Source: an uncultured Flavobacteriales bacterium
GTDB lineage: Bacteria; Bacteroidota; Bacteroidia; Flavobacteriales_D; Parvicellaceae
NCBI GenBank assembly: GCA_913064955.1
Contig: CAJYBK010000003.1
Span: forward strand, 1-37,697
Direction: 5' to 3'
Length of the DNA: 37,697 nucleotides
Shown here: positions 17,449 through 21,270 of the stretch, piece after piece
Layout: each line of letters starts with the position of its first letter
How positions within the stretch are numbered: the first letter of the stretch is position 1
The notes under the pieces: model-generated
What the model saw: the letters and a program-made list of their open reading frames with translations, nothing else
The model's database searches: none
What the model was told of the DNA's origin: nothing
Translations under genes and position numbers: made by a program

Positions 17449-19566
17449 ATGCAAAACTTTTTTATTTCTGAGATATCCCGGTCTGAACAATTAAAAGATT
17501 GGCAGGTATCCAAAACTTTAGAACTTCTTAAAGAAGGTGGAACAGTTCCTTTCATATCCAGATATCGTAAAGATGCCACTGGAAATTTAGATGAAGTGCA
17601 AATCGAATCCATCCAAAAAGAGTATGCTCGATTTGAAAATATTGCTAAACGAAAAAGCACCATTCTTGAAGCCATAAAACAAGCAGAGAAGTTAAGCACT
17701 GAACTAACTAAACAAATAAATGATTGCTGGAATGAGACGCTTTTGGAGGATATTTACCTTCCTTATAAAACAAGACGAAAAACCAAAGCGGATGTTGCCA
17801 TCGAAAATGGATTAGAACCCCTAGCTAAAATACTCATGGCGCAGCATAATGAATCTTTGGAAGTTGCGGCCAGCAGATTTAAAAATGCAAATATTCAAAA
17901 TATTGAAGATGCCATTTCTGGAGCACAAGACATTGCCGCACAATGGATAGCAGAAAGAATTTATATCAGAGAAAATCTAAGAAGACTGTTTCAAAGAGAA
18001 GCCATTATTACTTCAAAAATAGTTAAAGGTAAAGACGAAGAAGCAGAAAAATACAGTGATTACTTTGACTACAAAGAACCTGTTTCTAAAGTTAAATCTC
18101 ACAGAACATTAGCGTTACTCAGAGGTTCAAAAGAAGGATTGTTAAAGGTTAAAATAGAGCCTAACAAAGAGGCCGCGCTGCAAATATTGGAAAAAGGAAT
18201 AGTAAAAACTAACAATCCAGACGCTTTCTTAATTGAAGCTATCAAAGATGCATACAAAAGGTTGCTCAAGCCTTCTTTGGAAAATGAATTAACGAAAGTA
18301 CTCAAGCAAAAAGCAGATGAAGAGGCTATTAAAGTTTTTGCACAAAACCTTCAGCAATTGTTACTTCAGCCTCCGTTAGGTTCGTACAGAGTATTAGCAA
18401 TTGACCCAGGCTTTAGAAGTGGATGCAAAGTAGTGTGCTTAGATAGCAATGGTGATTTATTGCAAAACGAAACTATATTCCCACACGCACCTCAACGAGA
18501 GACAGCCATGGCCAAGAAAAAACTTTCTACTATTGTAGAGCAATATCAAATTGAGGCTATTGCAATTGGAAATGGTACAGCAAGTAGGGAGACAGAATCA
18601 TTTGTTAAAGCTATTCACTTTGATAGAGAAGTAAAAGTATTTGTCGTAAATGAAGCAGGAGCGTCTGTTTATTCGGCTTCTAAAGTTGCGAGAGAAGAGT
18701 TTCCTCAATATGATGTGACCGTAAGAGGTTCAGTTTCTATTGGCAGAAGATTGATGGACCCATTAGCAGAATTGGTCAAAATAGACCCAAAAAGCATTGG
18801 TGTGGGACAATACCAGCATGATGTGGATCAGAAACATCTGCAAGAGAACTTAGATAATGTAGTGATTTCTTGTGTAAATAAAGTTGGAGTGGATTTAAAC
18901 ACTGCCAGCAAATATTTACTTACTTATGTTTCCGGAGTTGGACCATCATTAGCTGAAAACATCGTAAAATACAGAAGTGAAATAGGTCAATTTAGTTCCA
19001 GAAAAGAACTTAAAAACGTGGCTAAACTAGGTCAAAAAGCATTTGAACAATCTGCAGGATTCTTAAGGGTGAGAAATGGCGAAAATCCTTTAGACAATAC
19101 TTCTGTTCATCCAGAAAACTATGGATTAGTCAAAAAAATGGCAAAATCGATTGGCAAGCAAGTTGACGAAATAATTGGTGAATCTGAAATTCTGGAAAAT
19201 ATAGAACTACAAAAATTTGTGGATAATGAAATCGGGATGCATACACTTACTGACATTATCAATGAATTGAAGAAACCTGGACATGACCCGCGTAAAATGG
19301 TCAAAGTATTTGAGTTTGATAAAACAATCCGAAGTATGGATCACCTAGAAGTTGGAAAGGAACTACCAGGGATAGTTAATAATGTAACCAATTTTGGTGC
19401 CTTCGTTGACATTGGAATTAAAGAAAATGGATTGATTCACATTTCTAATTTGGCAGATGAATATATAGCTAACCCTGCGGATGTAATCTCGCTTCACCAG
19501 CATGTTATGGTCAAAGTGATCTCCATAGACAAAGTCAGAAAACGAATCGGATTAAAACTATTGTAA
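17449..19566 (+). CDS. tex: Tex family RNA-binding transcription accessory protein
   Basis: YqgF-like region (VLAIDPGFRSGCKVVCLD), helix-hairpin-helix, C-terminal S1 domain (LPGIVNNVTNFGAFVDIGIKENGLIHISNLAD). Confidence 0.95.
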   Translation: MQNFFISEISRSEQLKDWQVSKTLELLKEGGTVPFISRYRKDATGNLDEVQIESIQKEYARFENIAKRKSTILEAIKQAEKLSTELTKQINDCWNETLLEDIYLPYKTRRKTKADVAIENGLEPLAKILMAQHNESLEVAASRFKNANIQNIEDAISGAQDIAAQWIAERIYIRENLRRLFQREAIITSKIVKGKDEEAEKYSDYFDYKEPVSKVKSHRTLALLRGSKEGLLKVKIEPNKEAALQILEKGIVKTNNPDAFLIEAIKDAYKRLLKPSLENELTKVLKQKADEEAIKVFAQNLQQLLLQPPLGSYRVLAIDPGFRSGCKVVCLDSNGDLLQNETIFPHAPQRETAMAKKKLSTIVEQYQIEAIAIGNGTASRETESFVKAIHFDREVKVFVVNEAGASVYSASKVAREEFPQYDVTVRGSVSIGRRLMDPLAELVKIDPKSIGVGQYQHDVDQKHLQENLDNVVISCVNKVGVDLNTASKYLLTYVSGVGPSLAENIVKYRSEIGQFSSRKELKNVAKLGQKAFEQSAGFLRVRNGENPLDNTSVHPENYGLVKKMAKSIGKQVDEIIGESEILENIELQKFVDNEIGMHTLTDIINELKKPGHDPRKMVKVFEFDKTIRSMDHLEVGKELPGIVNNVTNFGAFVDIGIKENGLIHISNLADEYIANPADVISLHQHVMVKVISIDKVRKRIGLKLL

Positions 19567-20355
19567 TTGAATTTTGATTGCATCATATTGGCCGGTGGCA
19601 AAAGCACTAGACTTGGAGTAGACAAAGCCATGATTCACTTTCAGGGTGCTACCCTTTTGAACAATCTAGTGAAAACTGTTTCTCAATTCTCGAATCATGT
19701 TATTGTCGTTTCTAAAGACACCAATCACCACAAACCAAATACTAATAATGTTCAGGAGGAAAGTGCTCTAGGACCTCTCAATGGATTACTGAATGGACTA
19801 AAGAAAAGTAATAACGAATGGTCACTTGTACTTTCCGTAGATATGCCATTTTTAGATTTAAGTAAGTTAGTCGAGGATCTTGAAAAAACACTAAATGATA
19901 ATATCATAGCAGCAATTCCGATTAATAACAATAAGAAGCAGTTTCTAGCAGGTTTCTATCATAAACGAGCAATTTCGATTATTGAATACCTCATTGCATC
20001 TCAACAGTTCGCTATGAAATCGTTATTCGAAACTAACAATGAATTCGTGGAACTAGTTGATAGTTCAAATAACTTTGCCAATCTTAATCAAATCCAAGAC
20101 ATTCATAATGAAAATTTAAGTTTAGTTGAAGTGATGTCTTTTGGGAGAATTCAAGAATTATTCAAATTACACAAACAATCGGTCCTTACCTTATCTAGAA
20201 CTGTGCATGATTTTCAAATCGAACTTGAAAAAGATTATCCTTTTCTAAAAGACACTACCTACTCTATTGCAGTAAATCAAAATATTGAGAACCCAAATCA
20301 CGGCATAAAATCGGGTGATGTTATTGCTTTACTGCCTCCTTTTGCTGGAGGTTAA
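19567..20355 (+). CDS. MobA-MoaD fusion: molybdenum cofactor guanylyltransferase-like domain plus molybdopterin synthase sulfur carrier
   Basis: N-terminal CIILAGGKSTRLGVDKA and SVDMPFLD (MobA). C-terminal EVMSFGRIQELF...YSIAVNQNIENPNHGIKSGDVIALLPPFAGG (MoaD, terminal GG). TTG start abuts the tex stop. Confidence 0.87.
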   Translation: MNFDCIILAGGKSTRLGVDKAMIHFQGATLLNNLVKTVSQFSNHVIVVSKDTNHHKPNTNNVQEESALGPLNGLLNGLKKSNNEWSLVLSVDMPFLDLSKLVEDLEKTLNDNIIAAIPINNNKKQFLAGFYHKRAISIIEYLIASQQFAMKSLFETNNEFVELVDSSNNFANLNQIQDIHNENLSLVEVMSFGRIQELFKLHKQSVLTLSRTVHDFQIELEKDYPFLKDTTYSIAVNQNIENPNHGIKSGDVIALLPPFAGG

Positions 20356-20786
20356 AAATCATCGTCTATAAAATGTAATTTGACCACTGCCTTGTCAGTG
20401 CCTTCCAGATGCTTCACCGCTTCTTTGATATCTACCCAAAGGAAATCATAAAATTTATGAACTTCTTTTAACTCATATGGTTTATTGTGATTATTCAACA
20501 GGTAGTAATACTTCACCAAGTTCTTATCTTTTTTTCCTCTAATCTTAGAAAGCAAATACAATTCTTCCGTGTCTATTTCCATTCCCACTTCCTCGAAGGC
20601 TTCGCGTACTAATCCTTCCCTAGGAGTTTCACCTTCATCCACAAAACCGCCAACCAAAGAATACTTAGTCTTGGCACCGTGCTTTTTTAAAAGCAATATT
20701 TTTGGCGGTTGATAGACCACCAATCTTGATTTGTATTTATCCTTGTTCTTTTTCACTTCAAAATAAAATGAGTAAAATTGTGGCAC
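20352..20786 (-). CDS. Nudix hydrolase
   Basis: Nudix box GGFVDEGETPREGLVREAFEEVGMEID. Confidence 0.92.
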   Translation of the reverse strand: MPQFYSFYFEVKKNKDKYKSRLVVYQPPKILLLKKHGAKTKYSLVGGFVDEGETPREGLVREAFEEVGMEIDTEELYLLSKIRGKKDKNLVKYYYLLNNHNKPYELKEVHKFYDFLWVDIKEAVKHLEGTDKAVVKLHFIDDDF

Positions 20787-20841: not shown

Positions 20842-21270
20842 ATGAAAAATATTTTTGTAGAAGGCCCTATTACTCCTGATAAAATTGCCACTTCAATTGC
20901 CCATCACCAGGTCAAAACAAACATAGGCGCCCATGATATTTTTCTTGGACAAGTACGTGCAGATGTAATTGATAATAAAACTGTTGTTGGTATTGACTAT
21001 TCCTGTTACCAAGAAATGGCTAACAAAGTAGCGCATGAAATAAGAGAAGCGGCATTTGAAAAGTTTGACTTGACTTGCATGCATATCTACCATAGTATTG
21101 GACCAGTAAAAGCAGGTGAAATTTGCCTTTTTGTATTCACTTCATCTGCACATAGAAAACCTGCCATGGATGCTTGCAAATATTTAGTGGAAGAAATTAA
21201 AAAGAAACTTCCTGTTTTTGGCAAAGAGGTATTTGAGGATGATACACATGTATGGAAAGTGAACAAATAA
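20842..21270 (+). CDS. moaE: Molybdopterin synthase catalytic subunit MoaE
   Basis: GQVRADVIDNKTVVGIDYSCYQEMA..., HSIGPVKAGEICLFVFTSSAHRKPAMDAC...LPVFGKEVFEDDTHVWK. Confidence 0.93.
   Translation: MKNIFVEGPITPDKIATSIAHHQVKTNIGAHDIFLGQVRADVIDNKTVVGIDYSCYQEMANKVAHEIREAAFEKFDLTCMHIYHSIGPVKAGEICLFVFTSSAHRKPAMDACKYLVEEIKKKLPVFGKEVFEDDTHVWKVNK

Follow-up and report, generated by a model that had tools for sequence, protein, structure and literature searches.

The locus analysed here raises the question whether an open reading frame that joins a MobA-like nucleotidyltransferase to a MoaD-like sulfur carrier encodes a working protein of Moco biosynthesis, and how the two genes became one. The window, i.e. 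the whole stretch of DNA analysed, comprises 37,697 nucleotides. We consider it probable that the frame encodes a functional two-domain Moco-biosynthesis protein, born when adjacent mobA and moaD genes, a pair that typically overlaps, lost the stop/start junction separating them. The features concerned are:

17449-19566, + strand: tex, encoding a Tex/S1 RNA-binding protein, directly upstream of the fusion (Pfam Tex_YqgF 1.9e-49 and others)
19567-20355, + strand: mobA-moaD fusion gene, 262 aa, TTG start
19567-20118, + strand: MobA domain, residues 1-184 (NTP_transf_3; PDB 1e5k/2e8b by sequence and fold; end points from the alignment)
19588-19629, + strand: nucleotide-binding motif LAGGKSTRLGVDKA, residues 8-21 (GGKS.R.G.DK invariant in 11 of 11 fusions)
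19840-19851, + strand: DMPF motif, residues 92-95 (Asp invariant among the fusions)
20080-20088, + strand: N-x-N motif, residues 172-174, close to where the MobA domain ends (invariant among the fusions)
20119-20352, + strand: MoaD domain, residues 185-262 (ThiS, TIGR01682 moaD, PDB 2q5w_D; begins where stand-alone MoaD starts)
20347-20352, + strand: C-terminal Gly261-Gly262, putative thiocarboxylation site (invariant in 11 of 11 fusions; flexible in the model)
20352-20786, - strand: antisense Nudix hydrolase gene (Pfam NUDIX 3e-14), sharing 4 bases with the 3' end of the fusion gene
20842-21270, + strand: moaE, molybdopterin synthase catalytic subunit (Pfam MoaE 2.5e-27; PDB matches), presumably encoding the partner of the fusion's MoaD domain

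A sequence-only reading of the window had described the frame as a MobA-like domain followed by a complete MoaD-like one and had predicted matches to NTP_transf_3/MobA and ThiS/MoaD. Both Pfam domains were found above their curated cut-offs, and the PDB matches agree. NTP_transf_3 (PF12804) covers aa 5-154 (1.6e-24, 87.3 bits versus a cut-off of 27). In a PDB sequence search, aa 4-179 matched E. coli and Aquifex MobA, with MobA proteins as the best matches, and the top nine fold matches of the model in the PDB were MobA or MobA-like, ahead of IspD/GlmU (TM 0.81 to 1e5k, target-normalised). With E. coli MobA (1e5k; TIGR02665, PF12804) the first 184 residues share the fold, GGKS.R.G.DK, the conserved Asp and the terminal N-x-N, but the fusion carries a C-terminal MoaD domain and scores below the TIGR02665 equivalog cut-off. 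MobA is the best NCBIfam model for the N-terminal part, with equivalog scores of 95.0 versus 179 and 77.4 versus 151.85 bits; three other fusions stay below the cut-offs, too. The GTP-binding motif, the conserved Asp and N-x-N are all present in the window protein and invariant in the 11 fusions known to us, although the fusion of the same-genus genome G001 has DMLF in place of DMPF. The MobA domain would act as a guanylyltransferase forming bis-MGD.

The MoaD fold announced for the end of the protein was confirmed in the C-terminal 78 aa or so. ThiS (PF02597) matches aa 192-262 (4.1e-10, 40.5 bits versus a cut-off of 22.5) and is aligned to the last profile position (76/76); the protein ends in a free C-terminal Gly-Gly. 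The best NCBIfam model here is TIGR01682 moaD (5.8e-11, 43.1 versus a cut-off of 66.15), and in the PDB search aa 188-262 matched S. aureus MoaD (2q5w_D, 8.7e-7) through the final glycine. Since this model is the best one and all PDB matches are MoaD proteins, the domain is, by sequence, MoaD rather than ThiS. It belongs to the same family as MoaD (PF02597, TIGR01682) and ends with PPFAGG, but differs in that its N-terminus is joined to MobA and in scoring below the TIGR01682 cut-off. The Gly-Gly would be thiocarboxylated and pass its sulfur to MoaE.

In the alignment, stand-alone MobA proteins stop at about residue 184 of the window protein and stand-alone MoaD proteins start at about residue 185, indicating that no linker was added at the join. 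The AlphaFold2 model of the fusion (86 aligned sequences) reached a pLDDT of 93.3 and a pTM of 0.88. In this model a helix (176-181) leads on to the initial MoaD strand at 185, and apart from the last two residues or so (pLDDT about 60) no part is flexible.

The genome of the window consists of 372 contigs and is 97.8% complete. Family searches across these contigs found one ThiS/MoaD domain and detected one MobA, both in the fusion, and one MoaE, the copy in the window; neither a stand-alone moaD nor a second mobA, which might have replaced the fusion, was found. Besides the fusion, NTP_transf_3 gave matches on contigs C42 and C122, the two that were inspected and judged to be sugar nucleotidyltransferases of the RfbA/KdsB type, and three weaker ones. 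MoeA, MoaC, MoaA and a MoeB with a rhodanese domain are encoded on other contigs, the latter on C134 (ThiF 1.1e-75, rhodanese 1.3e-19). At the edge of contig C122 lies an incomplete gene for an oxidoreductase of the FdhF/YdeP family (1.4e-62), with one ORF between this fragment and kdsB, and in G001 an intact FdhF/YdeP gene adjoins kdsB. The nucleotide form of the cofactor would accordingly have a candidate user in the window's genome, an FdhF/YdeP-type bis-MGD enzyme. An ORF on contig C154 (L124:265-1677) starts with about 58 residues of a ThiF domain and runs into an FAD-linked oxidase; either a remnant of moeB or a join made in assembly could account for it.

The TTG start codon of the fusion abuts the stop codon of tex, whose reading frame it shares, and the fusion ORF contains no in-frame ATG upstream of the nucleotide-binding motif. 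The junction is equally tight in the same-genus genomes G001 (TAG then ATG) and G002 (TAATG overlap), which suggests coupled translation of tex and the fusion. A single stop separates the two frames (TAA then TTG), and its read-through would give a Tex-MobA-MoaD protein. We rejected tex, which is adjacent and in frame but set apart by the stop codon, as a member of the system; we know of no functional link of tex to the fusion. The antisense Nudix gene separates the fusion from moaE, as described in the sequence-only reading. A Nudix gene is found at the corresponding place in G002, with moeB between it and moaE, but G001 carries another gene pair there. We consider the Nudix gene incidental for these reasons and rejected it as a functional partner. 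The pair in G001 (L009:931-1529, between fusion and moaE) consists of a ParE-type toxin gene and a small upstream gene of unknown type, which is likely its antitoxin.

The same-genus genomes show the fusion in different states. G001, a single contig, contains an uninterrupted fusion of 261 aa between tex and moaE. The gene order in G002 is tex, broken fusion, Nudix, moeB, moaE; the fusion there is a pseudogene with several stops and frame changes (contig C64, L040:7908-8711) between intact tex and Nudix genes, and the end of MobA and the start of MoaD share one frame across the join. Matches to moeB, moaE, moaC and moaA remain in G002, a genome 82% complete, in which no bis-MGD enzyme with PF00384 or PF01568 was detected. 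One such molybdoenzyme was detected in G001. In G003 mobA and moaD are separate as usual, with an 11-base overlap, and belong to a moeA-mobA-moaD-moaC cluster. Between window and G001 the fused protein has diverged strongly (27% identity in MobA, 34% in MoaD) compared to MoaE (76%), MoaC (74%) and Tex (68%); separate MobAs of relatives at comparable MoaE distance share about 50%. For two genomes of one genus, this divergence (window versus L038:7296-8081) is unusually fast relative to tex and moaE. A low bis-MGD demand in the genus could be the cause of both the fast divergence and the loss in G002.

Related loci were found with a profile of five fusions; the window protein, used as the sole query, gave no related locus. 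A search of a plasmid collection gave no full fusion and one partial match, restricted to the MobA part. Altogether we found 11 distinct MobA-MoaD fusions in Bacteroidota and Verrucomicrobiota: those of the window, G001, G202 and G231 (the latter two from one other genus), Litoribacter ruber, Aestuariibaculum suncheonense, a Flavobacterium MAG and four further MAGs. These four, three of them labelled Verrucomicrobiota, group together in the tree. The window fusion shares 18-27% identity with the other ten. MoaD is last and Gly-Gly invariant in all 11. Among 395 genomes of the window's class, an uninterrupted full-length match was present in the window's genome and in three others among the matches listed; the fusion is rare in this class.

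In Bacteroidota the common gene order is moeA ... mobA-moaD-moeB-moaE-moaC. Among the loci gathered here, a few of which represent one genome twice, 37 of 53 separate adjacent mobA-moaD pairs overlap, most commonly by 4 or 17 bases. On the MobA plus MoaD tree a single fusion clade was rejected for all fusions (p-AU 2.1e-6) as well as for those of Bacteroidota (1.4e-5). The fused state needs six changes on this tree and its starred branches force at least three, the exact number being uncertain with the long branches of the tree. Fusion of overlapping neighbouring genes took place on several occasions. In the mostly verrucomicrobial MAGs (L212, L219, L220, L233) the fusion is followed directly by moaE; their clustering in one supported group suggests that fusion took place earlier there. 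The MoaD-last arrangement had been taken as the order that keeps MoaD functional, with its C-terminus free. Since the order mobA-moaD of the Bacteroidota operon already gives it, the arrangement is by itself no evidence of selection for a free C-terminus.

MoeB activates MoaD, and the MoaD thiocarboxylate donates sulfur to cPMP bound by MoaE (PMC7759655). Mog (adenylation) and MoeA (metal insertion) precede MobA, which converts Mo-MPT to bis-MGD (PMC2997495). For the fusion we infer expression, both activities and a Moco traffic of the following kind. The MoeB-rhodanese protein encoded on C134 would adenylate and thiocarboxylate Gly262 of the MoaD domain. The thiocarboxylated tail would enter MoaE, which would make molybdopterin (MPT) from cPMP. 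After insertion of molybdenum by Mog/MoeA, the MobA domain of the same polypeptide would use GTP to form bis-MGD for the FdhF/YdeP-type oxidoreductase. Thereby the tether would mainly set a 1:1 co-expression, the fixed stoichiometry being its clearest consequence, and it may also keep two partners in a loose Moco complex close to each other. A direct hand-over of MPT from MoaE to MobA would not occur. Such channelling, proposed in the sequence-only reading, is unlikely, given the intervening steps of Mog and MoeA, and we rejected it. Its alternative suggestion, a co-regulation of the two steps, fits better, as most separate mobA-moaD pairs already overlap. Counting against the functional reading are the fast divergence, the pseudogene in G002, the TTG start, the missed NCBIfam cut-offs and DMLF in G001.

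Several of these points would be expected if the fusion was a tolerated by-product of a falling need for bis-MGD, working poorly and heading to loss. The divergence is fast against the neighbouring genes, the decayed copy belongs to a genome in which no PF00384/PF01568 enzyme was detected, and the single such enzyme of G001 points in the same direction. We nevertheless regard this as unlikely, albeit well worth considering and partly compatible with the functional two-domain protein. Window and G001 both retain an intact ORF and the motifs, and the pathway genes looked for were found; G002 is incompletely sampled at 82%, and elsewhere fusions (L114, L115) adjoin genes for molybdopterin oxidoreductases. 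Conversely, the fusion might be a convergent selected device anchoring MobA on molybdopterin synthase, so that MPT synthase, Mog/MoeA and MobA form one unit and both separate proteins are replaced in some lineages, which we hold to be rather improbable. In its channelling form, MoaD docked on MoaE would hold MobA, and via MobA also MoeA/Mog, and unstable pterin intermediates would be passed on without release. The repeated origin and the retention of both motif sets agree with that, a MoeA/MogA/MobA complex has been suggested in other bacteria (PMC2997495), and the domain fusion of gephyrin has been linked to channelling (Belaidi and Schwarz 2013, according to the citing article PMC11489736). 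We still judge it improbable: overlapping genes predict repeated origin as well, MoaE and MobA are separated by the steps of two other enzymes, the fusion in G002 is decaying, and full-length uninterrupted matches occur in four of the 395 class genomes among the matches listed.

A post-translational cut into free MobA and MoaD has a precedent in MoaX, the MoaD-MoaE fusion, which needs cutting to work (PMC4326299). That cut follows an internal Gly-Gly, whereas the Gly-Gly of the window fusion is already terminal. As the junction has no linker and is ordered in the model, and the alignment contains no conserved junction motif, such processing appears very improbable. An assembly or sequencing error joining separate genes might be suspected in a genome of 372 contigs, and a frameshift or missed stop between the domains was a concern raised with the first description of the ORF. 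The uninterrupted fusion at the same locus of the single-contig, same-genus G001 disposes of both, and the fusions of G202 and G231 agree with each other, leaving the chance of such an error practically negligible. The functional two-domain protein remains our preferred reading.

Fusions of Moco enzymes are already known. MoaX of Mycobacterium tuberculosis likewise joins MoaD to another Moco enzyme, but there MoaD occupies the N-terminus, its Gly-Gly is internal and cleavage is required (PMC4326299); the window fusion, with MoaD at the end, needs no cleavage. A fused MPT synthase of the MoaX type does not apply here, moaE being a separate gene and the Gly-Gly terminal. The ubiquitin-like sulfur carrier is also last in an Azoarcus aldehyde ferredoxin oxidoreductase-MoaD and an actinobacterial sulfite reductase-ThiS (PMC1779556); unlike in the window fusion, their partner is not a cofactor-synthesis enzyme. 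The NCBIfam families MobA-MobB (PRK14489/14490) and MoaC-MobA (PRK14500) join MobA to a Moco-biosynthesis domain, too, with MobB or MoaC in place of MoaD. No match was obtained to an NCBIfam model for MobA-MoaD, and no published description of this fusion was found in the literature searched, outside of which most subscription journals lie; automatic domain databases may list the architecture. The MobA-MoaD fusion is real and recurrent but mechanistically ordinary.

Should both activities prove real, a single small protein found in nature would join the sulfur-carrier and nucleotide steps of Moco synthesis, offering a ready tool for testing whether the late Moco enzymes act as a complex. The fusion further suggests that an N-terminal partner of about 20 kDa does not prevent a MoaD domain from serving MoeB and MoaE. 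Furthermore, the repeated fusions present a clean case of gene fusion from overlapping genes.

The MoaE proteins of the window and of other Bacteroidota mostly have (F/W)GKE where several solved MoaE sequences have WKKE; Bacteroidota MoaE may lack one lysine in the active-site region or have it displaced. The motif is alike with fused or separate MoaD. Pfam-confirmed MobA-MobB fusions were seen in a Selenomonadaceae MAG (L164:3965-5065) and a Lachnospiraceae MAG (L190:3980-5035).
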